Shown one piece after another: positions 6,601 through 60,109 of a stretch of 64,000 nucleotides of DNA. The notes under the pieces were generated by a model that worked only from the letters and a program-made list of their open reading frames with translations, was not told the DNA's origin and did not search any database. A program made the translations under genes and the position numbers. Every line of letters begins with the position of its first letter. Within the stretch, counting starts at the first letter, position 1. The stretch is from Anas platyrhynchos (Eukaryota > Chordata > Aves > Anseriformes > Anatidae), in assembly GCF_047663525.1 (NCBI RefSeq), contig NC_092602.1, forward strand, positions 2,549,501 to 2,613,500, given 5' to 3'.

Positions 6601-9600
6601 CCAGGCATTAAAAACGAGAACAGAAGAGATGCTAACAGATCTAGAGAGTGAACGTGAAGAACTTAAAAAGGTGATGAAAGACAATACAGAGCTGAAGGCT
6701 TCTCTTGCTAGTCTCACTCATCTTCTTGAGAAAATTAAATCCGCAAGAGAGACATCCAACTCTGAATGTATTCAGTTACTTCAAGAGAAAGAGGCTCTTT
6801 CTTCATCAGAACGAAGGCTTTTGGCTGAAAAGGATGAACTTCTAAATGAAAATAAGGTAATTACTGAAAAGCTTGCTAAGGCCACAGCAGATGCTATGCT
6901 TGCTGAGAAAATCTTTACTGAGAAAATAAATGAATTGAACTTGGAAAAGGAATCTGTTTTTTGTAAGTCGTTGCAATTTGAAAAGCACAATGAAGCTCTT
7001 CTGAAAGAGAAGAATGAATTGGAGAGAAAATACGCAGAGCTCCTTGATGAGAACAAGTCTTCTACAAATGTAGTTTCTGATATGAAGAGAGAACATGAGC
7101 TGAATACCTTAGCCAAGAGAGCTCTGGCCCAAGAGAATACCACACTGCAAGAGTCCCTTGAAGCTCTCAAGGAAGAGCTAAATAAGATGAATCTAGAAAA
7201 TCAAGAGCTAAAAGCTTGTAAACGTGACCTTTCAGATCTTTTGAAAGAGGCACAGGATGCCAAAAGAACATTGGAAAATGAACTGTCTGCTCTGTCTCGT
7301 GACAAGCAGGTCCTATCATCCTCATTCAAGACCTGTTCTACTGACATGGAAACAATGACCAGAGAGAGGACCGAATTACAAGATAAGTGTCAGAAATTAA
7401 AGGAAGAACTTCAGAATATGAAAGAAAACTTAACCATAGAAAAGGAAGCTAGAAAACTGGATAAGGAGTCATTTTTGTTGGAACGTCTGGAGCTTCAAAA
7501 TAACATGAGCTCCTTAGAGAAGGAGATAGAAGTGATGAGAGAGAAAAATAAAGAATTTCTAACTGAGAAAGAAAGTTTGGTTCAGGAGAAAGAAAAATCC
7601 GAAACTAAACTGGTGGAAATAATTAAAGAAAAAGAAATCCTCTGTGCAGAGACAGAACAGCTGGCTTCCAAAATTGAGCAACTGAAGAGTGACTTTACTT
7701 CCTTGTCTACATCAAAAGCAGAGCTCCAGGACTTGCACAGCTGTCTGTCCAAGATGCTGGATGATCTTCAGCGGAAACATGATGTGACTGAGAAAGAGAG
7801 AAACAAATTACTTAAGGAAAATGAAAGTCTGCTTGCTGAACAGAAGAGTCTGATCATCAGTAGGGAAGAAACACTGAAAGAGAAGGAGAAATTGTCCAAG
7901 AACCATTATAAGTTGCAGGAGGAAGTAGCACTGTTAGAGCACACTAACATAGACCTCTCGGGCAAACTGCTGGTCTCTGAGGAAAAAAATCAGATGCTGC
8001 TGGAGAAGGTGAACAATCTGGCTTTGACACTAAGAGAAATTGAAACTCTCCAGGCCCAAACAATAATGCAAAAAACGGAGGTATTGAAACGTACAGTTAA
8101 ACAAGTACGGTTATACTAATACTGAGCACTAACTCCATGGTTTCCTCTCTGCACTTCATTGCACAATCAGCACTTCATCTCAGGGTAAATGGGCTGGAGT
8201 TTTGTTCTCAATATATTTCTTTTTTTTTTTTTTTTGTTAAGTTGTAACTGAGTCTGAAAGACATTTTAACTATAATAATTCTTTTTAAATTATTTCTAAA
8301 TATAAAAGCCTATGTTGTCGCTGAATGTTGCAAGAAAACAACATAAACTGTGAATAAAAGGAAGTCTTGTTTTTTGAATCTGGTGGAAGAAATCGGGCAG
8401 TTCTTCTGGTGAAGTACTTCTCAGCTTAATAGCTAGTGTAGGCATTACATCAAACTACAAATTTGAGTTATTCAAAAAATATAAAACAATGGACTACTCC
8501 TGTAAATATAATTGGATAATTAAAAAACAGTGCAGGAGAATCATTTACATTTGCATTATAGGCCTTCCAGACTGTTAAAGATATTGGCATCTCTCATGTT
8601 CTTTTTATTCACAGAAGTGTTTGTATTCACCGCCAACAAATTCTGAATAGTATTTTGAATTTCACCTTGAATTTCACTCAAAGCCCATAAAATCACTTAG
8701 GATATATTGAATCCATAATGAACAATGCTAAAATGATGTGATAATTGGTCTATTTCCTAATTATTTTTTTGTTTTATATTCAAATTTTTATCAGTTGTTA
8801 TAATTCCACATTTTCTGAAAATAGAAACATTTGTTGGAAGTGAATATCTACGAACTACTACTGTCTAAAATATTTGGAAGTCTAAGAGCAATCACAATCG
8901 TAAATAGAAATGCAGGAAAAAAAATAAAGAAAGGAAGAAATTGTCTAAGTGGTGACCCAAGCATGGGGTTTCTGCATGGAACTGAATCTACTCATGTCCG
9001 TTTATTTTTACACTTTATGCCAGCTTCAGGATGCAAATTCAGAGATGAAGTCCTTCTTTAATTGGAAAGCATCTGGCAAACAGTGGAGCTGTGCATAAAG
9101 TATTGTGGGTTTCCTTTCAGAGGTCCCACTGTTTTTTTCTCCTTCATCCTCACTTTGTACACAGGCTGTCAAAATGGCAGAAGATGTTTTACAGACTGTG
9201 GAGAAGGTGACCAAAGAGAAGGATGCCATTCACAAAGAAAAGATCGAAACTTTGGCTTCTCTGGAGAACTCTAGACAGACAAATGAGAAGCTGCAGAACG
9301 AGGTAACCATATTTAAATGCTTTTATCTGAAAAGTATTGCCTGGTTTGTAAGTGACTTGGATCTTTCTTGAAGTGTCTATGCAGTGAAATATGTGTTGTA
9401 GGCTTTGATTACTTTCTGGGATGAAACCAAAGGCAAAATCATGCTTCAGTTCCCTGGTTGTATGGGTTGCAACTTCACGCCCCAATGAAGTGCTGCAAGG
9501 TCTGACTAGGTACAAATACCACTGACTTATACACTGTACAAATAAATGCATGGGCACAGCTGTCCCAAAGAACTTACAGTCCAAGAAATACATCAGTTCC

Positions 9601-27180: not shown

Positions 27181-30100
27181 CTCGGGGTGACTCTCGGTTC
27201 CCCTGGGGCTTTCCCAGAGCAGTGGCGGTTCCGTGTGAAGCTGCCCAAGTTCCCACAGTTGGGTCTCAGTGGGGAGCGAGGCGCATACACCAAAACCATG
27301 TATGTTTCAGACACGTGAATGTGAGCACAAATGGCTGAGTAAAAACTACTCAGAGATAAAAAGGAAGCTGATGACCATAACCACGTGCAGCGTTCCTCTT
27401 TTGTTTACATTCAGCACCCCTTAGCCCCCACCCCGTGCCCCGATCTGCGCTGCTGAGTTACTGTCTGTGGTGCTCCTGCCTGTGACCCTTGCAGGGAGGA
27501 CAGAGGCCGCTCTCCGCAGAGGGACTTCCACATCCTCTTCGTGCCGCGCCGCAGCCTGCTCTGCGAGCAGTGGCTGAAGGAGCAGGGTGTGCTGGGGTCC
27601 TTCATCCACCGGGAGCAGTACAGCCTCGACCTGATACCCTTCGATGGGGACCTGCTGTCCATGGAGTCTGAGAGCGCCTTCAAGGTTAGTGCTCGTCTCA
27701 TCGTCGAGGAAGAGCCCTGCATGTGGGTGCTGGCTCTTGGTGCCAGGTACAAAGGCCTCACACAGCAACTGGTATGCGAGTGAACAGATGGCTCTGAGTG
27801 CTGAACTGGGTCCAACTTGTCATTGGGCTTTCTGACTAAACACTGGCAGAACAATCACAACACCAGCCTGTATCCTCCTCCTCCAGCCATAGACCGGTGT
27901 TACTTTGACAAACGGAGCGTTCATAAGGCCTAAAACACTTGGTCATTAAAACAAATGGCGCAGTTTGTATCAATATGCAGCATAAGAGCCATGGCAGTGG
28001 TTAATGATGTACGCTGCAAATCACATATCCTCTTTCTCAGAGTGCTGCACCTAGGGACAGAAACGTGTGAGTGGTTCTTTGCCCGTTTCAGCCTTATTAA
28101 ATAGAGCCAAGATGTGCCAGGGCCTGCAGCTGCTTGGCAGCAGCTAGGCAGAGGTGTTGTGCTCTCGGATCCGCCCAGTTAGAGGGAGAGGCTTACCACA
28201 GTTACTCTCTGGCTCTCTTCTCTCTCTCAAACTGGGAATAGCACGCAGGATTCAAAAAATTTGCAGCAATTGGTTAGATCAAGTGATTTGATTTAGGAAC
28301 AGCACGGGTAAGGTCCATATTTACCACTGGCCACAGTTTATTCCCCAGCCTCTGCCTCCTCTGAAGTACTGATGTGGACCATGGGGTGCTGTGGAAGCGG
28401 CTGTGTCAGGTGGAAACCTCCCACTGGGAATCCTGCTTCTCCTTTAGGAATGTTACTTGGAGAGCGACCAGACAAGTCTGTACCACGCGGCAAAGGGGCT
28501 GATGACTCTGCAGGCTCTCTATGGAACCATCCCTCAGATTTTTGGGAAGGGCGAATGTGCCCGGGTAAGGCAAACGCTGCTGCTTAAACAATGCCTCTTG
28601 TTCTTTGCAACACGTGCTTGCTGACGTGCCGCCTGTGGGTTTGCTCGTTTTGATTCCAGCCGCGTACTCTTCTTGTCATGTTGGCATTTCAGGATCATGG
28701 CCATTAGGTTTTTGTTGTCTCTGCCTAAAAGAACAATCTTTGCTGTTTCACAGGTCTTCCTGTCAGGAAGCTTTATCTGATTTTATGTTTTGCTCATAGG
28801 TACAGTACCTTTGTGCTTTCCGCAGGTCTTTCTGTGGAGTACGCTTAGCTGCTCTGGTAACCAGTAAACAGTTCTGGTAATCAGAAGGGCTAGATAAAGC
28901 TGGAAATGTGCAACCTATGCTTATGTGTTATCTTTTCCATCTCTCCCTATAACTGTCTCACTCTTTTTTTTTTTTCCCCATCTCATCAACCTAGTGTTTA
29001 ATTGGTCCCTTTTTTAATGAGGGAGTGGCTTGAGAGGAAGCCAGTGCTTTGGCTGCCGCAGTTGCTGCCCTGCTAAGGTACAGAGTAGCAGTGAAGGGCT
29101 TTGCTTTTTTTGTTGTCTTTGTCTTGTCCTGCCCCCATTTGTCAGCCAGTTTGTACCTCTTGTCATTGTCTTCCTTTGTACAGGATTGTGACCCCATACT
29201 TGCATAATCATGTGCCTGTACAGCCTACAAGTCAAATCCATCTGTTGCAGCCAGCACCGTAACCAGACCAATGTGATTTATTTTCAGCACGTGGCTAATA
29301 TGATGATCAGGATGAAGCGTGAGTTCCCCGGAAGCCAGAACTCGATATTTCCAGTCTTTGACACCCTCTTGTTGCTGGACCGCAACGTGGACCTGCTGAC
29401 GCCGTTAGCTACGCAGCTGACATATGAAGGGCTGATTGATGAAATCTATGGGATTCAGAACAGTGAGTACTGCAGGGTGACAGGAGTGGCCCCGCTGTGC
29501 TGGAGCAGGCCGCAGTGTGTCAGATGGATTTCTTTTTCCACTAAGTGACAGTGACATGGGAGCTGCTCACCTGAACTTGGGGTGGGGATGGTTCAGACCC
29601 CTGATGTAGCAGCCCCAGCCTAGAGCCCATCGAGATCAGCTTTGGCCACCTTTGTTTGCTGGGGAAGCAGAGCTGAGTGCAGGCATGTTACTGAGCTGGG
29701 AGTGTTCTGGGTGTTGGCTGGGTGCAGATGTGGTGACACCGAACATGTAGAGTGGGAGTAGAAATGGTAGCGTGTGCCTTCACCCTCCAGCCTGGATAGC
29801 TCCCCCGGTGCCACAGGGAAAGGGAAGAGTTTGTGAAAGGTCATTCGAAGCGCTCCCCTTCTCCTTGGGAGGTAGGAATTAAAAATTAGGTGTTCAGTGG
29901 TTTTAATCTGATGCTGTACTGATGGCTGGGAGGCTGACCCCAAACCTCTTTGGAAACAGGGCACCTAGAGCTTCCCTGTGTGAGTACAGGGAGACTGTAC
30001 AGGGAGACTCTCCTTAATTAACATATATCTACTAAGTAATTTGGGCACTTGCATTAGCTTTCTTGCTAAGAACCCTTTCCAATTAAGGAGACAGGTTTCA

Positions 30101-33100
30101 CAGCCTGCTTTGCTGAAGTTACGGTGGGGAAGCTCCAGTCCTTACCAGGGTTATCTCTCTGCATTTGACAGCATATGTGAAACTCCCTCCTGAGAAGTTT
30201 GCCCCGAAGAAGCAGGGTGAGGGTGGCAAAGATCTCCCCACAGAGCCCAAGAAACTCCAGCTGAACTCAGCTGAAGAGCTGTACGCTGAAATCCGAGACA
30301 AGAACTTCAATGCTGTGGGGTCAGTGCTGAGCAAGAAAGCCAAGATCATCTCAGCAGCCTTTGAGGTGAGGCGTGTATCTGACCGTGCATGCCTCGGGCA
30401 TTGTCATCAGACACAGACGTGGTCTGTATCAGTGGGGCTCTGACAGGCAGCCTGAGCTACTGCCGTGGACTGATCCCCAGCCAGAGAAAACACAGGCCTC
30501 AAAACCTGCTTGGTTCTGGTCCCCCATCCAGGGCTGAGATCAGCTCCGCTTCAGCAGTAGGTGTTGGTCAGATCGCTGCAGTAATGTAGACCCCCTCTTC
30601 TCACCACCTGGGGCTCTTCTGGGACTTTCCCCATCCTGACTGTTAAAAGCTTTTCTCAGATCTAGCCTGCAAAACTCAGGTGCTGCTTCCCACTGCAAGA
30701 GGCCTAAGGTTAATTTTAGTGCAGTGATCAGTTCCACTTTGTGGGATGTTGATCTTTCAGTTAACAGGTAACAATCCCTGTCTCTCTGAGTTCCCTGAGG
30801 ATAGAGAGAAAGAGTTGAAGAAATAAGACTCAAGATACACATTCACGCCTTGTTACTATGGCAGGCATCAAAAACAACAGGAATGTGGAAAAACCCAAAT
30901 TGTCTTACGGGGGGTTTGACCTGTAAACTCAGGCTCATGTTGTCTTAAAGCTGGAGAGTGCTGTGGGGTGTGTTTGTGGTTTTGTTTGAAAATATCCTGT
31001 TGATGATTCAGAAAGAGTCTGAGATCCTGTATCTGTGTTTTCAGACTTCATAGTGGTTCTGCAGAGAACTGGTTACGTTGTTGGATTGTATTTCTTGTTT
31101 ATTTCCTTTGCCTCTTCCTTTCTGCCACATGAAAGAGGTGGTGGTTCCCTAACTCAACTCGTGCACGCTTAGCCTTCCCCTCGTAGGTGGCTGTTACTGC
31201 AGGATTAATGCTGAAGGTGCTAAGGATGGATTATTCAGACTGTTGCTTTTTAAAAAAAAAAAAAAAGTCGTCAAATATTAGAGGTGATAATGAAACAGCA
31301 TCACAGCGGTAGCAAAGGACTTATTAAATTGCAGGCTTTGTCACTATCACTCTCCTGCCTGCACTTGCCTGCTTAAATTCTTCACATATGAATCAAATTA
31401 TTATTTTTATTCTAAGTTGCAGTGAGAGACAAGTAGCCCAAATGAAATACAGACATCTGGACTGCTCTGAGAGCTGAAGTCTGCGTTGTGCTTCATCAGA
31501 GCGTTGCTCAAAACCTGGGAAACTGCAGTCAGGTACAGTGAATCGCAGGCTCCTCCTTAAGAGGGCCGCAGACCCGGCCTGCCCAGTTCCTCAGCACCTC
31601 TGAAAACTGCTTTGAGGGGCAGTGACCCCACCTCTGGCTGCATTTGCCCAGAACTCCATGTTTGGTGGCACCTAGCTTTTGTCTTTGCATAAAAAAAAGA
31701 TATTTGCTGATAGGGAAGCTGAGGAAAAGTTAGTGATGGCTGGTCAGACAAAAGTGGAGAAAAGGGATTGCCCGCACTGGCACAATAATTGACAGAACGG
31801 AAAGAAACAGCCCGATGCTCCTGTTGCATTATGACTGGTCTCTTCTAACCACCAAAGCGCTGTTACGGGTGATGCTGTGATTTTAGTATAAAGATGAAAA
31901 GTATTTTGTCTGAAAAGCTGCACATCTCTAACAGTATCTGCTGCTGCACTGACTACAGGAAAAGACTTGCTCATGATGAAATGATCTAGTTGGTGGGTGG
32001 CTAATTCATCTGAATGAGATCTAACCTTAGTGATGGATTTCTTTAGGAAAGGCACCATGCGAAAACGGTTGGAGAGATTAAGCAGTTTGTCTCGCAGTTG
32101 CCACACATGCAGGCAGCAAGGAGTTCTCTGGCAAACCACACTTCAATTGCAGAACTCATCAAAGACATCACCAGTGAGTATTTGTTGTATAGGCTGAGGG
32201 ATTTGAGTGTACAAGATGTAAGACAACTTGATTGACATCATTCAGCTTGACAAAAATTAGGTTTATCCCATCCAGTGCTCCTCTGCTGAAATGTTTAAAT
32301 GCAGAAAATACAGTCAGTTGCTAATATGTCGATTTTCATTCTTTTCCTGAAGCATCTGAGGATTTCTTTGATAATTTAACAGTGGAACAGGAATTCATGT
32401 CCGGAATAGACACAGACAAGGTGAGTAGGTAACGACGACTAATAACTCTTCAAAATATATATATATGTATATTTCTGTGTGTGCTTTTTTTTTTTTTTGC
32501 ATTTGTGTTTGGTGGTGGTTTGGTTTTTGGACATTTTTTGTTTGTTTGTTTGAGCAATACGTGGTCTGGATGATGTCTATCTCCATTCAGTGTCGAAGCT
32601 GTGAGCTCTCACATGTGTCTCCTTGCATGTCTGCAGCAGTTGTTTCCAAGTGACATGCACCACTGAGCTTACGCAGAGGTGCCACTGTACTGAGTGCTCT
32701 GCCAGGCTTTTACCTGTCGCTGCCTGCAGCTCAGCTGACTGCGGGTGGATTGCTTTCACTTGTATAGGGGGACCGTGTCCTGTGAGGGATGAGTGGAATC
32801 GAGGTGCTTTAGAGAGGCGCGGGATCACTGATTTACAGCTGGCTTGGAGCTGCCTGGGCAGCAGCTGCATCCCCTTTCTTGCCATTTTGCAGACACTAGG
32901 CAAAACTAGATCATTCTTTCCACGTCTGCTAGGTACTTTAGCAGGGCTTTGACTAACAGCTTATATATTTCTTTGAATAGGTTAACAATTACATTGAAGA
33001 CTGCATTGCCCAAAAACATCCATTAATCAAGATCCTACGTCTCGTTTGCTTGCAATCTGTGTGCAATAGTGGGCTGAAGCAGAAGGTTCTGGACCATTAT

Positions 33101-34678
33101 AAAAGAGAGATTCTGCAGGTTGGTCTGTAGCTTTTGGATTGATAAATTTCTGAGAAAATCTCCATCAAAGCCTCCACTGTACAGCATTCTGGATGGATGC
33201 ATCTTACATGGGGTAGTCTTAGCATGACTTAGGTGTGTGTGGAGGGCAGAGGCTTGTGTTTGGGCTGACAGCTGGGACGCAGGTGGTGCACATGTCTGTA
33301 CACAACGTGAAGGTACAGAGGTTTATCTCATTACAGTTTTTGCTATCATGGTTTAAACACTCTAAATGGGTTAGAGTAGATCTCACTGTAGAGATCTTAA
33401 CCAAAACATTTTTTATAATAACGTTTACAATCTGGCCATGGATTAATGGCATGGCATTTAAGGTGAATTCTTTCTATTGCAGACGTACGGATACGAGCAC
33501 ATATTGACCTTAAACAACTTAGAGAAGGCTGGACTCCTGAAGCCTCAGACAAGTGGTAGGAATAACTACCCAACGATCAGGAAAACCCTGCGCCTATGGA
33601 TGGATGACGTTAATGAACAGGTAAACAGATGCTTCAGCAGTGACAATTACACTTAACAGCAGGGGATTGTGTGCAGCAGGAAAGCCCTCATGGTTTTGTT
33701 TGATTGTTAGGGTGCTGTGCTGCTTTCCAGCATGAAGTAGCACTCACCTGTTGCTCGCACTCTGCTCTCTTGCAGAACCCCAATGATATCTCCTATGTGT
33801 ACAGTGGCTACGCGCCGCTGAGCGTGCGCCTGGCACAGCTACTAGCCCGGCCTGGGTGGCGCAGCATAGAGGAGGTATTAAAGATGCTGCCAGGTCCCCA
33901 TTTTGAGGAGAGGCAGCAGTTACCTACTGGCCTTCAGAAAAAGCGTAAGTTTTGTTTCATTTTCCCATTTTTTAAAGGGACGTGCATGTCTGCTAGGTTG
34001 GAATGAGGCAAACAGAAATGAAGGCTGGCAGAATGCAGGCATCTGTCTCCTCTCCCCATCTCCCTACAGTGTTAGATATCCCTATTCTTGACAGATGGGT
34101 TTTGGGCCTCCTTAAAGCTTCCAGTCTGCTATTAATGAACAGCACCATTTGTATTGAAAATACTGTGGAGTTGTACATTTCTTTAACTTCTAATCGGTGT
34201 ACTAACATAATCCACCCTTTCACCATGGTTTTAATAAGTACCATTACCTCACAACACAGGTCAGCATCACTCTCCTAGTACTAAGCAAATTCTGTAGAGA
34301 CTGCTCAGCTGGCAGCGGAGTCTGCACCTCTGGGCCCCAGGCCGGTTCTGTGCTCAACAGGTTTCTTCTCTAAACCAGCTACATTTATTTTAGGTTTAGG
34401 ACGTTCTCAGTTTGCCTGAGAGGTGATGCATAGGAGATGTTAAAATAAAACTAAGCCAACCTGTATGTTTCTCTGAATACGCAGGTCAGCACGGTGAGAA
34501 CCGAGTCACACTGGTGTTCTTCCTGGGAGGCGTGACGTACGCAGAAATAGCGGCACTCAGATTTCTCTCTCAGATGGAAGATGGAGGCACAGAGTATGTC
34601 ATTGCCACCACAAAACTGATCAACGGGACCACCTGGATCAAATCCTTGATGGAAAAACTGGAGCCTGCCCCTTTCTAG
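26687..34678 (+). CDS. VPS33A: VPS33A, Sec1/Munc18 subunit of HOPS/CORVET
   Basis: SM-family protein that templates SNARE assembly within the HOPS and CORVET tethers during fusion with late endosomes and lysosomes. Exons: 26687-26788, 26875-26940, 27031-27158, 27495-27684, 28448-28564, 29288-29462, 30172-30365, 32047-32173, 32353-32420, 32981-33118, 33483-33620, 33776-33944, 34485-34678. Phases are kept throughout and the sum is 1,806 nt, giving 601 residues against 596 in human. Recognised segments include [52 protein letters not shown] and a C-terminal [19 protein letters not shown]. The start is the first ATG in a GC-rich promoter and matches the family N-terminus. The C-terminus ends ...EKLEPAPF, a few residues longer than the mammalian EKPF end. 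The first introns are only 86-90 bp. Confidence 0.98.
32455..32498 (+). repeat. AT and poly-T simple repeats in a VPS33A intron
   Basis: An (AT)n run (atatatatatgtatat) is followed by a T12 run shortly after the donor of the exon ending at 32420. Confidence 0.6.
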
Positions 34679-40560: not shown

Positions 40561-43276
40561 ATGGCCGCCGCGGGGCGCTGGTTGCGGAGCTGCCGCTCGC
40601 TCCTCAGGTACCGCCTGCTGCCGATAAGCGCGTCCTAAAGCCCGGTTCTCGGTGTGGTTGAATGTTGACGGTGTGTTTTTAAAGCCCGATTTTCAACACG
40701 ATTGGGTATTAACGGCGTGTTCGCACGAGATGCGTGCCTTCCCTCGCGGGACCAACAGCTTACTAGCTTACTGTGCCTGCCTTCTGTTCCTTGTAGCTTT
40801 AATTAAATAACAGGACCCTAAACAACCTTGTTCATGTGCAAACGCGGCTGTTTCGCAGAATGGGTCAGACACGGATGTATCACGGAAGGTTCCTCCTGAC
40901 TGGGTTGCCTGGAACAGCCCCCACACGTTTCTTTCCTCCTTGACACCCGCCTCACGCGTTGTTTCTGTGCCTGACCCCCGTGTTTTGTGCTTGCAGACGA
41001 GGCTTCCCCGTGCTGGCGGCCGCCCGGAGACAGCCCGGCCTCTCCGGAGGGAGCAGGCGATGGCAGCAGGCGCTGGGCGTGGGGCTGGGAGCGGCGCTGT
41101 GCGCAGTCCCGGTCATTGAGGTAATGTCATGAGAGAGATAGGATCGGGGGAAACAGTTCTAGCCAAAAACACTTGCCTAGCGTTGTACGAGTTAATGTTT
41201 ACCTTAGTACCATCCTCGTTCCTTCTCAGGGATCACAGGTGGTTATCTGTGTAGTTGTTAAGGAACAGAAATGAGAAAGACGGGGTTTACCTTCAATAAC
41301 ATCTTAAAAAAGGTTGCCTTGTTCTACAGAGAAAGGTGAAACACCACTAAGAATTAGGCTGTCCAAGCTTGTAATTAACAGTCTGCTTTTGCTTACCGTT
41401 ATTTGTTACAATAACGTATACTTCAATGTCATTGTAAAGACGATGCAAATTTGTTGTCTTTCAGAAACAGAATTCCTCTTCTCTCAGTAACGATGCCCTG
41501 ATTAAAAGAGCAGTTTCTCTGGTAACAGACAGCACTTCCACTCTCCTCTCTCAAACAACGTACGCGTTGATTGAAGCATTGACAGAGTATACGAAGGTAA
41601 GCTGAGTGATTGTGAGTAGTGTACTCATATATTTCTGCTTTTCATGCAGTACTAGTGTATTTGTGTGCAAGGAACTCCTGTAGCACAAGCAGGCTTTCAG
41701 AGCAGGAGATCAGAGTGGCAGTTAGATGCTCTGGATTCCAAAAAGCCCAGAACGATGCGTACATACTCCTGGAGTATGAAAGTTTGAGTCAGTGTACTCC
41801 TTCCTTTTTTCAACATCTTTAAAATTATCAGTAAACTTAAGAACAAAGCACCTATTTGGAACTATTAAACGATTCTGTTACCCGCTGTATATACTGGGGA
41901 TTAAACACAGACAGGTTAGTTCTTTTCTTATTTCTGTGACTAATTAACAGAAGTTAACACTGAGACGACATCAGTGACTTACAGATTTTCCTGTAACTGT
42001 GTGAAATGATTCCTTTGCAGGCGGTTTATACACTAGTGTCTCTCTACAAGCAATACTCAAATCTTCTTGGGAAGATGAACTCCGAAGAAGTAGACGCAGT
42101 CTGGCAGGTGGTGATAGGAGCCAGAGTTGATGTAAGCAATCACCTCCCTTCGGTCAGCAACTTGCCTCATTTATGCTGCTCAGAAAGCTGTTGTGTCACT
42201 TGCTGACCTTTTCACAACGGTTTGGAAGAGCATTCTGATACGCATCTATAAAGCTGAGTAATACTTTATTTTACTCCTAGATGACAACAAAACAGCAAGA
42301 ATACCTGAGGCTGGAGTCCAGCTGGATGACAGCGTTACGTCTCTCAGAGATGGCAGCAGAAGCTGCGTATCAATCAGGTATGCAGAAGCAGAAATACTGA
42401 GAATCTTTCAGCTAACATTTAGGTGCCCCTCGCTGGATTCACTTTTATTGAAGTGAGAGTATTTGCCTTTCGCTCAGGGACGATAGGAATTTTGTTTTCT
42501 CCCTGTACACACACTTCCACAAAACATGCAGAGACTTGACAGCTCTGAGATTGAGTTATGAGCTGACTTGGCAAAGTTATTGGAGCAGAGAAAGATTAGG
42601 ACAAAAAAGGTAAATATCCAGGGGCAGCCTAACTGCACATTTCTTGATGAAACTGTTGAAAAAGACATACGATCTGTAGGAGCACAGGAAAACAGGTTTC
42701 CATGTTCAGCAGTGCCACGCTTTCCAGTTCATGTTCCATGACAAGACAAGGCCTGAAAGTTCCTGGTACACGGCGACTGGGCTGGGCTTAGTTCTCAAAC
42801 CCAACAACACAAGCTGATCCAATTTGACCAGATGCTGGCTGAAAGCTGCTTGGGCTGGAGGAATTCAAGGGGACACAAAAATCTCAAGGTCGGCATGTTG
42901 TTGGTTGAGGTAAATGAACAGTAAATGCATTTAGCATTAATACAGCCCAAGAGCCATCAAAACACTTAGCAAAGCAGGTGATAATTACAGACAGTTGCTT
43001 CCTTAATTGAAGGTTTGCTGAGTGCTCTCTAACCTAATGAATTTAAATTACTGCTTTTCAGGTGCAGATCAAGCCTCAGTGACAGCCCGAAGCCACATCC
43101 AGCTAGTGAAATCACAAGTGCAAGAAGTGCGGCAGCTGTCCCAGAAAGCAGAGACGAAGTTAGCTGAAGCTCAAACAGAAGAGCTGATAAAAGCTCAAGG
43201 AGAGGAGTCTTCATTGCCGCAGGGTGTTATAGGAAGTACGGATGCAGGTGAAGACCCTTATCTCCGGGAAGACTGA
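40561..43276 (+). CDS. DIABLO: DIABLO (Smac), mitochondrial IAP antagonist
   Basis: Released from the mitochondrial intermembrane space during apoptosis, the processed protein displaces caspases from XIAP/cIAPs. Exons: 40561-40607, 40997-41120, 41465-41596, 42021-42131, 42281-42377, 43062-43276. Phases are kept and the sum is 726 nt, giving 241 residues (human 239). Residues 1-51 are an Arg-rich, acid-free presequence ending ...GLGAALC. Cleavage before residue 52 would expose AVPVIE, the IAP-binding motif (AVPI in mammals). The rest is the helical arch domain ([40 protein letters not shown]) with a charged C-terminal helix ending PYLRED. The start is the first ATG, inside a YY1-like AAGATGGCCGCC in a CpG-rich promoter. 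Confidence 0.97.
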
Positions 43277-47138: not shown

Positions 47139-48248
47139 TCATTTCCAACCGGTTCTGTAGGGGTGTGTTACTGACACTGCACACCGAATGCTCTCGTCCT
47201 TCACCAGCGTCCACATGATCCACATCTCAGTGGGGTTTAGCTTGTGCACAACCATCAGTTCCTTGTACAAGCACGGATCGAAAGGATTGAAAGGTCTCTG
47301 GATCCCAAAAGTCTTAAAGCCAGCATGGTTCTTTGGGGTCACTGCCATCTTTGCCAGACACATTCCCACAAAGACATCATCTATTGGGAAGAGCTCCATG
47401 TCCTCTGCGGTGCTCTGGAGTCGGCGCACTGTCGCTCTAGACATCACGTAACCCCCTCCGCCCGCATAGAGGGGATAGAAGGGGGCTCCGTACATGGTCT
47501 CTGGAATGAAGTACTTCACCTTGGTGTTCCTGATGGGCCGGGCGTTGGCAATCACGTCCCCAACAAAGAGATCCTGCTCAGGGTCCAGCTCCTGGAGGAA
47601 CTCAACAATATTGTAAGTGTTGACAAAGACATCATCGTCGCCCTTCAGCACAAACCTGGCATGCCAACAGTCCTCCATGAACCAGCGGAGGAAATGCAGC
47701 TCCTTGAGGGTCAAGTTGAAGAAATTGTCAGCAAAATCCCACTGCACGATGTCATCAAACTCCTGGCTTTCGTAAGCCAGCAGCTGGTGCAGGGGCTGCG
47801 CTTGGATTTTGGCCTCCGAGCGCCCGAGGAGGAACACCAGCCTGATGTGCCTGCCACCAATGGAGCCCTCCTTCCCCCACGTGTTCCTGATCGCCACCCG
47901 CCGCTCTATATTGATCGGGGGAGACTTGATCGCCAGCAAGAGGAACGTGTCCTTACTGCACCTGGAAGGCTTCAGCAGCGCTGAGAAGTTCCGGCAGTGC
48001 TTGTACGTTAGGAAGACGCGGTGAAGCTCCGGGAGGGCGAGGGAAGAATTGGCGAGGGTCAAGTCCGGCAAACACTTACTGGGTTCGGCGTTGTCCAAAG
48101 CTAAAGACTTGGGTTTGCGACTTGCTACATCCACTTTCTGCTCTGCTGACGACGTTGCCAACTTCGCCTCTCTCTTTAGGTAAAAAAGACACGCCAGCAG
48201 CATGACCGACAAGGCATAAAGCGCCAGGTTTTTAATCCTGGGATACAT
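47139..48248 (-). CDS. B3GNT4: B3GNT4, beta-1,3-N-acetylglucosaminyltransferase 4
   Basis: Golgi type II enzyme of family GT31 that adds beta-1,3-GlcNAc to galactose ends of N-acetyllactosamine chains. The 369-residue frame (human about 378) starts [17 protein letters not shown]: short cytosolic tail, one membrane anchor at about residues 6-26, then stem. Family motifs seen are [23 protein letters not shown] (metal-binding DDD), [11 protein letters not shown] and [11 protein letters not shown]. There are three N-glycosylation sequons (NSS, NFS, NLT). The whole coding region lies in one exon, as usual for this family. A minus-strand acceptor (cttcgtccccacag) ends just before 48275, so a 5' UTR exon is spliced on (donor near 48422). 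The open frame extends 5' to 48557, but that part crosses this intron. The paralogue choice (4) rests mainly on position between DIABLO and LRRC43. Confidence 0.92.
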
Positions 48249-48279
48249 CGCAATGTCCCGTGCGGGATCCAGGCCCTGT

Positions 48280-48600
48280 GGGGACGAAGAAGGACAGAAG
48301 GACAAGCCGGTGATCACCGAGAGCCGCACGCTCCCACCTCCCGTTCCCGGCACTGCGGGGCCAGGCGCAGCCCCGAGCTCCCCCCCACCCCGTCCCCAAC
48401 GCGGTTTTGGGGCGCGTCTCACCGCTGCGGGTCCCGGCGAGGACGGGAGCGCGGGGCCGGGCTCCGGAGCCAGCCCCGGGGGCAGAGCCCAGCCGGGAGC
48501 CGGGCAGCGCTGGCCACGCCGGGCTCCTTCTCTCCTCTCCTCTTCTCCTCCTCCCACCGGCAGCTGCCCGCTGCTGCCGCCGCCCCGCCCGGCCCCGCCC
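48280..48600 (-). promoter_or_regulatory. B3GNT4 5' UTR exon and CpG-rich promoter
   Basis: Minus-strand donor gcagcg/GTGAGA has its last exon base at 48423, followed by a 147-bp intron to the coding exon. The surrounding sequence is very GC- and CpG-rich with no TATA box. The exact transcription start is not visible. Confidence 0.55.
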
Positions 48601-48895
48601 CAGATTCGATCGCTGCATCCCCAACTCTACCTCCGCACGGTGCAGCCCCAATTGCCCCCCACCTGCTGCAAGTTGCACCCCCCAATTCCCCTGCACGCAC
48701 TGCACATTGCACCCCCAAATCCCCAACGCACACAGCACATTACACCCCCAGTTCACCCCCCCCACAGCACACTGCACCCCCAATCCCCCCCCATGCTGCA
48801 CCCCAATCCCTCCCCCTGCGTACTGCACCCCCAATTCCCACTCCCTGCACCCCCAGTCCCCCCAGTACATTGCACACCCACCACTGAGCTCCATC
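48601..48895. repeat. Degenerate C-rich minisatellite upstream of B3GNT4
   Basis: About 300 bp made of imperfect copies of a roughly 20-35-bp unit around gcacattgcacccccaatcc (for example near 48705, 48745, 48773 and 48825). The copies differ in spacer and C-run length. On the B3GNT4 coding strand the unit is G-rich (GGGGGTGCAATGTGC). Long open frames across it are by-products of the repeat. Confidence 0.8.
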
Positions 48896-50999: not shown

Positions 51000-53900
51000 T
51001 CAGGATGTGAGTAAGCGTCCTGTGTGGCAGAGCTGGCAGGGTGGCAGGGAACCTGCGGCTGCCTCCGGGCTGGGCACCGTTGGTGTTTGCTCTTGCACAC
51101 GCTGCTCTCTGCCCAGCCAGCTCCAGCTCTCTCACCTTTGGCAGACGCTGTGGTTTTCCGGCTGGCCTGACTTTCTGCTTTCAGTTTTTTGCTCTTCTCT
51201 TTGCCTTTTTTCTTGTCCTGTGGAGAGAGACGTTTCCACACTCAGGCGGTGTTGAAATTCAGTGCCCACATTCAGTCCTGTGACAGTCATCACCGCCTGG
51301 GTTGGCACCAGGATTTAACGGGCCAAAGAAAGTGGTGACAGGAAGCGGGAGCACAGCAGAGGGGCTGCCCAGAGAAGAGAAGAGACTCCAGGAAACACAA
51401 AGTGTCAGGACAGCTGGTGCACGTTGCCATGCTGAGAGGATCAGTGGAAGCGTGAGGGGTTGCTTTCACATTCTTGGAAATTAAGATAAACTCACCTATT
51501 TTCTTACCATAAGCCCACAAAAAGTAGCAGCACTTACTGATAATGCCAATTTCAAATAACAATGCCAGCAGTGGTGGGTGGTGCTCCAGCAGGGCTATTT
51601 CAGCCCCATTTTTTGGAGAGGGAACTGAGGGACGGATGAGCAGGGCAGGATGTGCTGAAACCCCTCCCCAGCAGCCCGTCCCCACCGCCCTGCCCCAGGA
51701 CATGCTCCTTACCACTTTCTCCTCCAGACTCGGTGGCTGCAGCGGCCGCTCGGTGATGAGGATCCCAAAGTCACACACAGTTGCCACCAGGTCCTCAGTG
51801 GCCAGCAGGGCCTCCAGGCTCACTCTCCTAGAGCCCAGGGTCCTCCGAATGGGTGGGTCGCTGCGGAGTTCACACGGCTGCTTCTTCTTCTTCTTCTCCT
51901 GCTGCTTCTGCTTCTGCTTGTCCTTGGGCACGGGACCCTGCAGAGCACCGGTATGGGATCAGTGTCAGCTGAGGGTTGGGGCCCCTTTATCAGGCAGCAG
52001 GTAACCTGGGCCCAGCCACTCGCCCACCTCTGTATCCAGCCTGAGGGGTGTGTAAAACAGCTGCTGCCCTCCTCCCACAGCAGGGAGGAATTTGTCTAGA
52101 GGTCTGGGATGGAGAAATACTCCCTGACACCCAAAACTGGCACAGGAGAAGGTCCCTCCTTGCCCCATCACTATTGTTGTAGCTCAGAAGGTTTTTGGAC
52201 ATTGTTCCCTCCTGGCATCCTACCTTGCCACCATCTTTCTTTAATCCCTGTCCTGCCTTCTTGTTTGTTACTGCACCTTCTTCTGAGTCAGCATCAACAG
52301 GCCACGAGAGTACCTGCCAGGAGAGAGGAGCTGGCGCTGCAGGGACTGGGACACCCAAGGACCTGGCCTGGGGCCACCTCCATCCCAGAGTGCCTCCCAG
52401 AGGGAGTGAGGTGCCACTGCTGCCCCCCCCCCAGCAGCTATTTTCTCTCCCTGCCCCTTTCATCTGGCCCTGCCACACACTCACCTTCTCCTCTACCACT
52501 GAGACGATCGTTCCAGCCGCCAGGTAGCCCTTCAGCCCCACCAAGTCCTTGGCAGTGTGCTCCTTCCTGTAGCTGCAGTCAATGGTGTCTGCCCAGGGTT
52601 TTCCAGGGGTGACAAACAAATGTGCTGCGCAGGAAAAAAAAATTAAAAAAATTGAGGTGACCTTTTCTTTCTGGGGAGAGGATAAGACTGGTGCCAGTTT
52701 GTTACCCATCATGAGTCTGCCCTGACCAGTAGGATGGAGGATTGATAATTCCTCATTACCAGCATGTGCCGTGGGCTCCTCCATGGCTGCAGACTCCTGC
52801 TGGCCCTTTGTTTCCCCCATGTCCCTTGCAGAGCAGTCCACACCCAGGGTGGCCACCGCAGGACTCTGATGAATTGTTGTTACCTGGAACAGAGAGGAAT
52901 CACCTGGCATGGCACGTCTGGCTGTGTCTGCACCAGGCCTAGGAGCAGCACTGCCTCTGAAATCCCATTCCCCAACCCATCCTGGTCATCAGGAGAAGGG
53001 ACAGAGCAAGGCGAGCTGCATGGTGGCACCTGCAGGAGGGCCAGAGATGCACTCCCATGTGCAGAGCAGCGTTGGACTACCCAGAGGGACAGGGAACACG
53101 GCCAGCAGAGACGGGTGCTGCCAGACTTGGCCACACAGGAATTTGTCCCTGGCCTGGAGGTGAAGTCCCCCTTGCTGTGGCCTGCCAGAGCCTCCTGTTT
53201 TCAGGAGCTCAGTTAAACACCAACCTCAGCGCTGCCACCGTCCTCCACCTCCTCTCCCTCTGCGAACTCGTAGGTCACGCAGTAGCTGTAGGTGATCGCC
53301 GCTGCCTTGGTGTCAACCTCCAGTTCCTGGAGAGTGCTGGGATCAGGAACTCCCTTGATCTTCCCAATGCTCACAACCACTTGTGCTTCACTTCTTATCA
53401 GCTCTAAAAGGAAGACAATCCTGCTGAGGAGCAAGGAAGGCACGGAGCAAGAGGAAACCTCCAGGATGCCAAGTCCCACCACCCAGCATCCCTCCCTGCC
53501 ATCCTTTGCAAGTGCTGTGACAAGCCATAGCCACATGGGGTCACTCCAAAGCCATGCAAACAACTGGCTTGGTTCCTTTGCCTCCCTCGTTAATATTTTC
53601 GACTCAATAAAGCACACTCAGTGCATAAATTCATTGAAGGGGGGTCACCAAGAGGGGCTTCCCTCAACCTGGTGCCCCCAAGGCCCTGGGATCTTGTCCC
53701 AGACTAGGATGTGTCACACTTTGGAGCAGGCACCACTTTGTGCTGGCACTGCAGCACACGTCAGCATCTTCCCAGATGTTCAGGAATGTCAGCAGAGATG
53801 TTCCTCTTTCAGCAGCTCAAGAGGGAAACACACAGCATGAAACCAGACTGTGTCTGGCAAACAAAGACGGGGCAGGCCGTGACACCAAGCCAGAGCTACA

Positions 53901-55881
53901 GGGACAGGGTTGGGTTGTTCCTGCAACCTTTGGACCTGATTAAGGCTAAAACCACCTCGATTATAGACGTGCTGCTGCAGGGTCCCCTGCCTGCCTCACC
54001 TGGCTGCCTTGCCAAACCACGGAACTGGTGCCTCTCGTCAGGCTCTATGTGGATGTCGTCCAGGACGGACAGCTGGGGCAGGCCGTCCACAACAAAGCCT
54101 CTGTAAGCAGGAATGAGAGCCAGAGGGTTCCCTTGGAGCACCAGGACCCGGAGCTTCTGCAGACTGGAGAGCTGGGAGACCAGCTCCAGCAGCTCTGTTA
54201 AGTTGTTAAAGCTCAGGTCAAGGGAGACGAGATTTGGCCTGAAAGAGAGAATCCAGCAGTAAGGGCAGGCAAACGACGTCCAGCTGAGGGCACTGCTGCC
54301 CTGAGTCGAGAAAAGAAACAGAAATCCTGATTCCTCAGCACAACAACCTGCAGTGGCACAAATTGTGTGAAAGTGGGGAATCCGAAAGCATAATCTCACA
54401 TAGTCCATTGCCAGCCTGCCCCATAACTCAAAACCTTTTTTTTCTTTAGCATCCATTAATTACCCCACTGCATCCTTCAGTGATACAGCCTAAGCTTTAC
54501 CCCCTTCCCCAGGGAAGACTACCAGCAGGGACTGGGAAGAGCAAAGCCAGACCCTGCCCCAACAAGCTTACATCAAAGTGTGAGACAGAAGGCAGCAAAC
54601 CGAGACAAGCCACGCTGCACTGATGGGGTGTTGGAGGCAGAGAAAAAAAAAAAAAAAACACCCTGCTGAAGGGCTGCAATTTCTTAATGCAGGGCATCTC
54701 GATGGCTTGGGGGCATCTGTCCCCATCTGCCCACCTCCCAGTAGCTAGCCTGTGGCATTACCAGAAGTCCGCATTGAGGTACTTGTCCTGCGAGGGGCCG
54801 CACAGCCTGTTGTACCCCAGCCCCAGGTGCTGCAGCTGCGGAGGGGGCTGAGAGCACAGCTCCTGAAGATCAGCCACAGCGTTGCAGCAGAGCTCCAGGA
54901 CCTGCCCAGGACAGAGGGAACAACAAACACCCTTTGCAATGAGCAGTTCCTGGCACACCCTCGAGCTGCTCAGCTTGTGCAGTTTTCATGGGATCTCTTT
55001 CCGATCCCACTGACACAAGGCTCTGCTCACCCACCTTCAGTGTCCGGGGCAGGTTGGCCGAGGTTACCCTGCTGATCTGGTTGGCACAGAGTATCAGCTC
55101 CTCCAGGTGCTGTAACTGCAGCAGATCCTCGTCGATTTCCTCTACCTACGAAGAGCTGTGTTTGGCCACCGTGACCTTGAACCACCTCGTGTCATGTGGG
55201 TCAAGGTGACGCAGAGATGTGGTGTTGATCCATGTGATGTACGTGTAGCACGGATCAGTGTAACACACCGAGTGGGGCTGCCAGCAGCTCGATCCCTGCT
55301 GCAATAGCAGCACCTGGGAAGACCCTGGGTTGGGGAAACTTTTCCCAGGATGTTTTCCCCCTCAGCAGATGTGTATTTGTGGCCTGGAGATGGGCAGCTC
55401 TGTGGGCACCAGCCCGTCCCTGCCTGCCAGCCTGCACTTACGTCCTTGCCGACGATCCGCAGGGACCTGAAGACCTGGAGGACGCGGGTGCCACTGACAA
55501 GCTGGGGTACCTGCACAGCCATATCCCGCAGCTGCTGGTCCTGGGGGCTGCAGCCTGGTGGCAGGGCCCAGGGGCTGTGCGGGTCTCTCAGCAGCTCCAT
55601 CAGAGCCTGGGGGCTCTCCTCGCCCAGCGGCAGGTCCTCATCCTCCTCCTGCCCCGAGGGGCTCGTGCGTGCGCTGAAGCGGGACTTGTTCTGCGGAGAG
55701 GGAGAGGGGAGAGGCAGTGAGCACCCCACAGACCCCCTGCCCTCTGTGGAGCCCTCCCCGTCCCACTGTGCCCCCCAGCCCCTACCCAGCTGCCAAGGCC
55801 GCAGGGGAAGTCCCGCAGGCCCAGGAGCCGCAGGTGCTCCCGAAAAGCAGCCGAGAGGCTGCGGGGCCCAGGCACCGCCAT
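51000..55881 (-). CDS. LRRC43: LRRC43, leucine-rich repeat protein
   Basis: Cytoplasmic leucine-rich-repeat protein of unknown mechanism, probably ciliary. Minus-strand exons: 55786-55881, 55442-55690, 55035-55145, 54762-54901, 54000-54238, 53225-53403, 52706-52883, 52485-52624, 52224-52313, 51713-51937, 51136-51217 and, tentatively, 51000-51019. Phases fit at every junction. N-terminus [20 protein letters not shown], then [13 protein letters not shown] as in the human protein. LRRs run from about residue 116 to 225 ([57 protein letters not shown]), followed by VLDDI capping, then [22 protein letters not shown] and a Lys-rich segment. The product is about 582 residues (human 656). The mammalian last-exon sequence was not found. 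The 53225 donor (GTTGGT) is weak. Confidence 0.92.
54643..54659. repeat. A-rich tract in an LRRC43 intron
   Basis: Run of about 17 A; it is the poly-T pyrimidine tract of the minus-strand intron between the exons at 54762 and 54238. Confidence 0.6.
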
Positions 55882-57808: not shown

Positions 57809-59471
57809 ATGAAACGCCAGACAGGTGGGTGCCACTTGGACGTGCCGTAAGGTTGCGTTGGTTGATGCTCGTCATTAGCTCAGCCGCTCAAATCTCTCTG
57901 CTTTAGAAAGTCAGCACGCTGCACAGAACCAGGAAGTTTTGCAAAAACGGCGTAGATGCCTGAGGCTGTACTCACTGTATTATTTTTTTTTTTTCTTTTC
58001 TTCATTTGAATGCAGAAATCACCAGATTTGTAATCTTCCTCTTCTGCTCACTGGCTCCTTTGGTCTCCTTGGCACCAACATCCGAAGATGGCAAAACTAC
58101 TACAGGACAGAGGCAGAGGCATTCTACTTCCAGAATAAGGCCCTTCCTAGTGCTAGAAAAGCAAGCAACTACCTTGTTTAAAAACTACGTAAGTGTAATA
58201 TTTTGCATTTGCTGGGCCTGTGTCTGGGAATGAATCTGTTGATTTAGTTACGAAATACTAGGAAGACCATCAGAAAAGAAATAGTTGGGTTAGAACCTCA
58301 AAGAGGCACCTCTCTGTATTCCATACAGAAGGAAAGCCTTTGCGTTGTCTTATTTTAGGACAGAGTTGGAGCAATGTCTAGGACAGCTTGGGTGTGCCAA
58401 CTGTGGTCTCACGCATTTTTCTTTGTTTCCTGAGTCACGTTGAGCTTGAAGCAGGCAGCTTTTGGGGTGACACCAGTCAGATCACTGGAAAGATGGAGAG
58501 AACTGGCTTCCTCTTCAGTCTGACCTTAATGCTAGAGCAGTCAGGAGCACTTCTGCAGAAAATCCTGCTCAGCCTTGCATTTCCTTGGAGACAGCAGAAT
58601 GTTCACTGAATCTGAAAGTCAATACCATAGGCAAATTTCAATGCCTGGGAACGTGTTCCCAAGAAAACGCTGATAAAAATCAGTATAAAGCATTTCCCCT
58701 GAATTCATTCTTGAAATCAAAACCATTTCTTCTGAAACAGGTTTGTTCTGGTCACAGCAAATGTGTTACGTGAGTAAATTTTACCTATATGGTTAAAAAC
58801 AAAAAAGACTCAGGAAAGCTGAAAACAATGCCAAGCAGGTTATTAAGACAGAAAGTGCTGCGCAATCATAGCCACAGATAGTATATAATAGTTGCTTGAT
58901 AAAGGAGCGTAGGTGTTAATACAGCCAGTGAACAATAACAAAAAAACCTCAAGCAGACGCAAGCTGAAAAATAGGTGTGTACGCTCCTAGACAGTCTCAT
59001 GTGGAAACTACCAGGACAGACGTAAACCAAAAGATTTAACGATTTCTCTCTCCTCTTCCTCCCCTGCAGAACGCATGCAGCAATGTAACACCGAGAACCA
59101 TAAGCTGGCTAACTGCTGACCTCCAAGTCAGAGCAATGGTGAAGAAAATACCCGAATGCCCACCTCTGGATGCAGGTTGCTGCATGCACGTTTTCTACAA
59201 TATTTTGCAAACCATACGAAATGATCCGGAAGCAATCTGTGGGAAGAATTTCACCCAGGCTTTGAACGCAAGTGTCATCCAGCTAAACGTGACGATGACC
59301 GAACGGGAGGTGCCTTACACCTGCAGGAGCAAGGATCTTCCACAGAAGGTCTGCGAGCAGTTCGGGGGGATGAAAGCAGCAAAGAAGATGAGGTACACCT
59401 GGCTGGTTTTACAGAAATATGAGCAATTTATGCAAAATGCAACAAAAATATACTCTGCAGTAGGAATGTAA
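57809..59471 (+). CDS. IL31: Candidate avian IL-31 counterpart: secreted cytokine-like protein
   Basis: Three coding exons, 57809-57824, 58016-58188 and 59070-59471, with good AG/GT borders and phases 1 and 0, give 196 residues. Residues 7-25 (TRFVIFLFCSLAPLVSLA) form a signal peptide with likely cleavage before PTSEDG. The mature chain of about 171 residues has predicted amphipathic helices, seven cysteines (NAC, PEC, GCC, AIC, YTC, KVC) and five N-glycosylation sequons (NVT, NFT, NAS, NVT, NAT). The 3' UTR is full of ATTTA motifs, typical of short-lived cytokine mRNAs. Position and orientation next to LRRC43 equal those of mammalian IL31. I could not align it convincingly to mammalian IL-31, whose cysteines differ, so the name rests on synteny and architecture. 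It could be another short-chain helical cytokine. The start is the ATG in gccATGa; an in-frame ATG at 57668 would bury the signal peptide. Confidence 0.75.
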
Positions 59472-59589
59472 TATGCCAAGCTGGAACAGTAACTGTAGGA
59501 TACGAGAGCTTTGGCTGAACGTACCTAGCAGTACTTGTGACCAGTTTGATGCCAGGGACAACGTTAATAATGTGCTTACTATCCTGTAG

Positions 59590-60010
59590 ATCATAAATAT
59601 ATACTCTAGTTTAGTTTACTATTTAAAAGATGAATGTCTTAAGTTATTGATTTTATTTATTATAAAAAATATTTATAATGTTTTATTTGCAGCAGTATAT
59701 CAAAAGGATGCACTGATTTAAGTCAGAGTGATTTAATTGACCAGTCACGATATCAATTAGCAAATAGGAAGGCACGATTTCAGTGATTTTCATGTTATTT
59801 ATATTTTTCTTTTGTAATTATTTTCCAAAAGAGAAGTTGATTTTCAGCAGACGGATTTTGTACTTCTGATTACTAGCAAATTGTATTTATGAATTTATAG
59901 AATACATTTATTTTTATAAATTTATTTAAGCAATTTTGTGTTCTATATTTATTCAGATTTTTAATTTATATATTTTAATGTTAAAAGAGATGAATGATGT
60001 ATTTACTACT
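59590..60010 (+). promoter_or_regulatory. AU-rich element cluster in the cytokine 3' UTR
   Basis: A very AT-rich stretch with repeated ATTTA pentamers and several overlapping TTATTTAT-type cores (near 59652, 59670, 59885, 59908, 59920 and 59945). Such elements bind TTP/AUF1-type proteins and destabilise cytokine and early-response mRNAs. Confidence 0.75.
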
Positions 60011-60084
60011 TAGGTGAACAGTTTTCCTCATCTTCTGTCACTATATATTTGGACAAAACCTGGCATTTAATTAAAATTATATTA

Positions 60085-60090
60085 AATAAA
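60085..60090 (+). terminator. Polyadenylation signal of the cytokine gene
   Basis: AATAAA (in attaaataaaactgc) 614 bp after the stop, just beyond the AU-rich cluster. Confidence 0.7.
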
Positions 60091-60109
60091 ACTGCTACTG
60101 GTGATTTTT

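Follow-up and report, generated by a model that had tools for sequence, protein, structure and literature searches.

A probable bird orthologue of IL31 in the MLXIP-LRRC43 interval

We wanted to know whether a small gene lying beyond LRRC43 in a bird genome, at the place where mammals carry IL31, could be the IL31 of this bird. The window, that is, the whole stretch of DNA analyzed, spans 64,000 nucleotides (contig C16, positions 2,549,501-2,613,500) of a genome that we searched as 1.26 Gb in 42 contigs. The original prediction had placed the gene at the IL31 locus, beyond LRRC43 on the opposite strand and with B3GNT4, DIABLO, VPS33A, and CLIP1 in order. The Pfam families and positions of the neighbors bear this out:

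5795..8116, + strand: CLIP1, large coiled-coil exon, assigned from position and visual inspection; no Pfam match for the 774-aa open reading frame
27457..34675, + strand: VPS33A exons, Pfam Sec1 in all four stretches submitted, two of them over the cut-off; name from position
41438..43273, + strand: DIABLO exons, Pfam Smac_DIABLO in two of three stretches submitted (E 8e-24 and 2e-25); name from position
47142..48626, - strand: B3GNT4, main coding exon, Pfam Galactosyl_T (E 3e-44); gene name from position
53899..54459, - strand: LRRC43, leucine-rich-repeat exon, Pfam LRR_9 (E 9e-8); gene name from position
from about C16:2,621,187, outside the window, - strand: MLXIP exons, open reading frames recognized by eye

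The distance from the poly(A) signals of the candidate to the MLXIP exons is about 11.6 kb. When two MLXIP stretches were submitted to Pfam, one gave an HLH match (E 5e-4, 20.3 bits, against a cut-off of 20.7) and the other none. The candidate lies on the + strand, opposite to LRRC43, and occupies the MLXIP-LRRC43 interval, which is the slot of mammalian IL31 and the position expected of an orthologue, MLXIP being recognized mostly by eye. In mammals, too, IL31 is opposite in strand to LRRC43. A horse study names BCL7A, MLXIP, IL31, LRRC43, B3GNT4, DIABLO, and CLIP1 in its gene list (PMC6402180).

Reading of the window sequence gave a gene of three coding exons, with a joined frame of 196 amino acids and no internal stop:

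57809..57824, + strand: coding exon 1, 16 nt, MKRQT plus 1 nt, ending in phase 1; start CCCGCC/ATGA, donor CAG/GTGGGT
57825..58015, + strand: intron 1, phase 1, within the signal peptide; GT...AG, an extended T-rich tract before the acceptor
58016..58188, + strand: coding exon 2, 173 nt; T-rich tract and GCAG acceptor, donor TAC/GTAAGT
58189..59069, + strand: intron 2, phase 0, separating helix A from the remainder of the protein; GTAAGT donor, pyrimidine-rich acceptor
59070..59471, + strand: coding exon 3 with stop, 402 nt, 133 residues; pyrimidine-rich acceptor ending CCCCTGCAG
59472..60100, + strand: AU-rich 3' UTR containing repeated ATTTA motifs; poly(A) signals at 60070 and 60081

Exon 2 encodes the rest of the signal peptide, the mature N terminus, and helix A, and ends in phase 0 after TLFKNY, while exon 3 would cover the AB loop and helices B, C, and D, within predicted helix limits. 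The gene had been described beforehand as a three-exon gene for a secreted, cysteine-rich, glycosylated protein of 196 residues, and we recovered the same exons, a likely signal peptide (cleavage point placed by eye), eight cysteines of which seven follow the signal peptide, and five N-glycosylation sequons (residues 68, 123, 129, 136, and 186). Six patterned phase-1 mini-exons occur within 4 kb upstream of exon 2, and the choice of exon 1 among them was a judgement; only the proposed one has CAG before the GT. Within intron 2, a 100-aa open frame on the + strand (58471-58770) has a codon usage scoring above that of the true exons and is probably due to chance.

The probability that exon 3 stays open by base composition is about 7e-4. 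Codon usage was compared with that of 389 open stretches of at least 57 codons, the exons of the neighbors included. The score of exon 3 was equalled by 176 of them and that of exon 2 by 122, so that codon usage does not separate these exons from other open stretches and the coding status rests on the architecture as a whole. A genome search with exon 3 found nothing but exon 3 itself at E <= 0.001. Past the stop codon, positions 59472-60160 harbor 15 ATTTA motifs, whereas 1000 shuffles of the same letters average 4.9. Such ATTTA-rich 3' UTRs are typical of short-lived cytokine mRNAs, but they are not a mark of the family, because in this genome the 700 nt past the stop contain two ATTTA in LIF and two in an OSM-like gene.

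The candidate had been thought too diverged to be recognized as IL-31, and indeed it gave no match to Pfam or PDB sequences at E up to 10 and none to the LIF_OSM profile PF01291, while pairwise scores against IL-31, LIF, and OSM stayed at shuffle level. A clearly recognizable IL31 elsewhere in the genome would have spoken against the candidate. The IL31 profile PF15209 gave three weak matches over the genome (best E 0.2), none over the cut-off and none on C16, and it misses the candidate in its own genome. IL-31, LIF, OSM, CNTF, and IL-6 belong to one structural family. Nevertheless, pairwise comparison of both IL-31 sequences with LIF, OSM, CNTF, and IL-6 gave Z scores of -0.7 to 0.9, again at shuffle level, while the same statistic reached 6.2 for LIF-OSM and 3.75 for LIF-CNTF. 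Because IL-31 is equally invisible pairwise against these relatives, a missing match between the candidate and IL-31 is expected. Our IL-31 references were the human protein (PDB 22pl is human IL-31 with IL31RA) and another IL-31 (PDB 9uk5); some tests also included a provisional mouse IL-31 sequence.

LIF and OSM are readily found in the same genome:

C16:5276100-5276854: LIF, exons 2-3, Pfam LIF_OSM (PF01291) E 2e-24, over the cut-off
C16:5267533-5268270: OSM-like gene, exons 2-3, Pfam LIF_OSM (PF01291) E 1e-7, over the cut-off

The two genes stand in tandem, 8.5 kb apart and 2.7 Mb from the candidate on C16, and mammalian OSM and LIF are also arranged in tandem. That the candidate is the LIF or OSM gene itself is ruled out, since those genes are found at C16:5.268-5.277 Mb and the candidate has no PF01291 match. 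The OSM-like gene, whose helix D reads FQQKLEGCRILWSYARF, is hard to reconcile with the claim of PMC13203501 that only mammals have OSM. A further LIF_OSM match just over the cut-off (C5:51929245-51929502, - strand, 24.8 bits, E 0.015) contains an in-frame TGA and is due to chance or is a remnant.

We then compared the architecture of the candidate with that of this family, starting from the residues at the end of exon 2:

58141..58188, + strand: end of helix A, residues 48-63, PFLVLEKQATTLFKNY

All three bird genes have LFxxY at the very end of exon 2, in phase 0 (TLFKNY/GTAAGT in the candidate, DLFSLY/GTGAGT in LIF, and ELFFFY/GTGAGT in the OSM-like gene), and helix A of CNTF likewise ends at a phase-0 exon end. 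The candidate therefore carries a helix A that ends in L[FL]xxY at a phase-0 exon end. Of 8099 control 16-mers taken in front of a GT, 7 end in this motif. The controls comprised every open 16-mer preceding a GT in the available DNA, 263 of them with a GTRAG donor; like these, the last 16 residues encoded by exon 2 were scored against the matching residues of LIF, OSM, CNTF, and IL-31. With the whole family set, the score of the candidate was reached by none of the 8099 controls and none of the 263, and with the LIF/OSM/CNTF set alone again by none of the 8099. Against IL-31 alone (human and 9uk5), 15 of the 8099 controls and 2 of the 263 scored as high. For comparison, six genuine family members, each tested with its own kind excluded, were equalled by 0 to 74 of the 8099 controls.

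Shuffling the helix A peptide 20000 times gave a score as high once for the whole set (37 times with the final Y fixed), 20 times for the LIF/OSM/CNTF set (220), 112 times for human IL-31 plus 9uk5 (468), and 3 times when the provisional mouse IL-31 was added (32). The end of helix A also had the top helical moment among the 18-residue windows tested. The 25 best windows define amphipathic stretches at about residues 47-64, 96-116, and 162-196, which is compatible with a bundle, with no fourth stretch among them.

The exon layout follows the same pattern. Three coding exons with a tiny first exon and intron phases 1 and 0 are, as far as is known, specific to the LIF/OSM/CNTF/IL-31 branch, and the candidate has this layout, with exons of 16, 173, and 402 nt compared to 16, 179, and 438 nt in LIF of the same genome, where exon 1 was assigned by pattern only (the sole candidate in 4 kb) and the acceptors were picked by judgement. 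For the first exon of the OSM-like gene there were seven patterned candidates.

At the other end of the protein, a second family helix was found:

59373..59456, + strand: helix D region, residues about 165-192, from the LIF/OSM/CNTF helix D profile and hhalign

Slid along the protein, the LIF/OSM/CNTF helix D profile picks the C-terminal AKKMRYTWLVLQKYEQFMQNATK, with 2 of 2000 shuffles as good; a family helix D at the C terminus was thus found with this profile and by local hhalign. The IL-31 helix D profile by itself prefers a different stretch of the protein, with a score equalled by 66 or 145 of 2000 shuffles. When IL-31 blocks for helices A, B, and D were placed in order but unanchored, they chose the helix at the end of exon 2 and the C-terminal helix. 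Their joint score was matched by 16 of 400 shuffles with human IL-31 and 9uk5 and by 5 of 400 with mouse IL-31 added; for the OSM-like protein the corresponding counts were 9 and 13 of 400, on a par with the candidate. No fit to the candidate was obtained for the helix B block of IL-31 (894 and 670 of 1000 shuffles as good).

Aligned by hhalign with eight family sequences, the candidate matched end to end, with helices A and D each placed on their counterparts (P 0.002, none of 150 shuffles as good), and it ranked above all eight other helical cytokines tried. IL-2, IL-3, IL-4, GM-CSF, EPO, IL-10, and leptin remained below it both globally and locally, also without mouse IL-31. Leaving out the mouse sequence, still none of 150 shuffles was as good, yet human IL-6 scored 16.9 and the candidate 15.8. 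Leaving out every IL-31, the global match was lost: 107 of 150 shuffles did as well, and seven of the eight other cytokines overtook the candidate. All that survived was the local match to helix D (1 of 150). Over the three versions of the alignment, 0, 0, and 1 of 150 shuffles were as good locally.

Taken together, it is very likely that the candidate belongs to the LIF/OSM/CNTF/IL-31 branch of the gp130 (IL-6) family. This membership rests on architecture, namely, the exon layout, the end of helix A, and helix D. That the gene is IL31 rather than a generic member of the family is suggested by the sequence and settled mainly by position, and we conclude that it is quite probably the bird orthologue of IL31.

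A bird IL31 calls for its receptors, and the original prediction had suggested a look for a paired IL31RA and OSMR in the same genome. Both are present as co-linear exon pieces. A genome search with human IL31RA located exons at C35:19.03-19.04 Mb, and local tblastn resolved 11 co-linear pieces covering human residues 3-712 at C35:19.022-19.045 Mb, apart from a gap at residues 39-93. Box 1 (CWPDIPNPAES) is present, in a piece that crosses a stop at its upstream end, probably an intron, and the C-tail is conserved (NPYLRNSVKTREFLISENLPEHSKNE in the bird and NPYLKNSVTAREFLVSEKLPEHTKGE in human). A further match to the human IL31RA query at C35:19.078 Mb, on the strand opposite to IL31RA, is probably gp130. 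OSMR, named from matches to the human OSMR query alone, is represented in tblastn by 12 co-linear pieces and one secondary match, covering human residues 65-898 with gaps, at C35:13.911-13.927 Mb. OSMR, IL31RA, and a probable gp130 share contig C35 (86 Mb). A second OSMR-like match (C35:13762091-13762300, - strand), probably LIFR, lies about 157 kb away from OSMR on the opposite strand.

Earlier work places chicken IL31RA on Z together with IL6ST (PMC3108232, PMC4964923), which fits C35 being the Z chromosome. IL31RA has been described in chicken CD4+CD8low T cells, in a study that mentions IL31 from the mammalian literature (PMC8631335), and is among the genes raised in infected ducks (PMC11123779); the available portions of these two papers name no bird ligand for IL31RA. 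Mammalian IL-31 uses IL31RA and OSMR (PMC7902767), and by analogy we consider it fairly likely that the candidate acts through the same pair.

The strongest competing explanation would be a gp130-family cytokine that is not the IL31 orthologue, but a LIF or OSM duplicate, formed on this chromosome within the lineage, that came by chance to lie at the IL31 locus. Helix D of the candidate indeed fits LIF/OSM/CNTF better than IL-31, the exon layout is shared with LIF, and LIF and the OSM-like gene reside on the same contig, 2.7 Mb off. However, the copy would have needed to land in the exact MLXIP-LRRC43 interval and to diverge beyond recognition, and the true IL31 would be missing although IL31RA was kept with a conserved C-tail; we consider this origin unlikely. 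Both LIF and the OSM-like protein of this bird, which share with the candidate the exon 2 end after LFxxY and a LIF/OSM-type helix D, differ from it in locus and in matching PF01291 over the cut-off. They also open helix D with an F (FKKK and FQQK), where the candidate has AKKM. In LIF and OSM, FxxK at this place serves LIFR-type binding, and its absence from the candidate argues against simple LIF mimicry. A helical cytokine of another kind, for example interferon-like, IL-10-like, or short-chain, would also be cysteine-rich and secreted and match no family model, and seven of the eight other cytokines score above the candidate globally once IL-31 is removed from the family alignment. Against the full family alignment, however, IL-2, IL-3, IL-4, GM-CSF, EPO, IL-10, and leptin all fall below it, and the exon layout of those families differs from phases 1 and 0, which leaves this reading highly improbable.

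Two further explanations accept the position and question the gene. If IL31 were decayed or unexpressed here, its frame surviving by chance or after a recent loss, the uninformative codon usage would be understandable; the gene nevertheless retains an intact frame together with intact splice sites, signal peptide, and AU-rich 3' UTR, and the C-tail of IL31RA has been kept, making such a loss very improbable. The same codon usage, which separates neither exon (176 and 122 of 389 stretches as high), would also suit chance open reading frames that resemble a gene. That three in-phase exons with a signal peptide and good splice sites would, by chance, also place a helix A of the family precisely where the exons join (0 of 8099), add a helix D (2 of 2000), and fall at the position of IL31 is hardly credible. 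An orthologue of IL31 thus remains our preferred reading. The proposal of an overlooked IL31 that we set out from is supported by helices A and D, the LIF-like layout, the separate LIF and OSM-like genes, both receptors, and the position.

Compared to mammalian IL-31, the candidate is likewise a small secreted cytokine of the MLXIP-LRRC43 locus, its helix A ends in LFKNY where that of 9uk5 ends in LLEDY, and global hhalign puts its C-terminal helix on helix D of IL-31. It differs in that no significant sequence match exists and helix B is not recognized, and human IL-31 has 3 cysteines and 164 aa, compared to 7 mature cysteines and 196 aa in the candidate. We thus propose that, after removal of the signal peptide, a small glycosylated cytokine would be secreted and would fold as an up-up-down-down four-helix bundle. 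By the example of mammalian IL-31, it may bind IL31RA and OSMR at the cell surface, and this pairing would bring JAK kinases together and activate STATs. The AU-rich mRNA is probably short-lived, like those of inducible cytokines. Mammalian IL-31 is made by activated Th2 cells and does not bind gp130. Expression of the bird gene is presumed, as is whatever part it may play in itch or type-2 immunity.

A recent survey described IL-31 as restricted to mammals, using search cut-offs of E <= 1e-5 and at least 30% identity, with which a gene like the candidate would be missed; the OSM-like gene and the probable gp130 of this genome also sit badly with that survey. No bird IL31 was reported among the matches listed in a full-text library with few subscription journals, and an unnamed gene model may already be annotated at the locus. 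There is a precedent in chicken TNF-alpha, a cytokine long thought absent from birds and later found; unlike the candidate, whose obstacle is divergence, that gene is very GC-rich (PMC5913325).

Overall, these data make it probable that the IL-31 axis of ligand, IL31RA, and OSMR was already in place before the mammal and bird lineages parted, and that its bird ligand was overlooked through lost sequence similarity. If true, a bird IL31 would provide the ligand for bird IL31RA. An itch and type-2 cytokine would date back to the amniote ancestor, IL-31 being no mammalian invention, and the gene would offer a test system for how a cytokine-receptor partnership persists while its sequence diverges.
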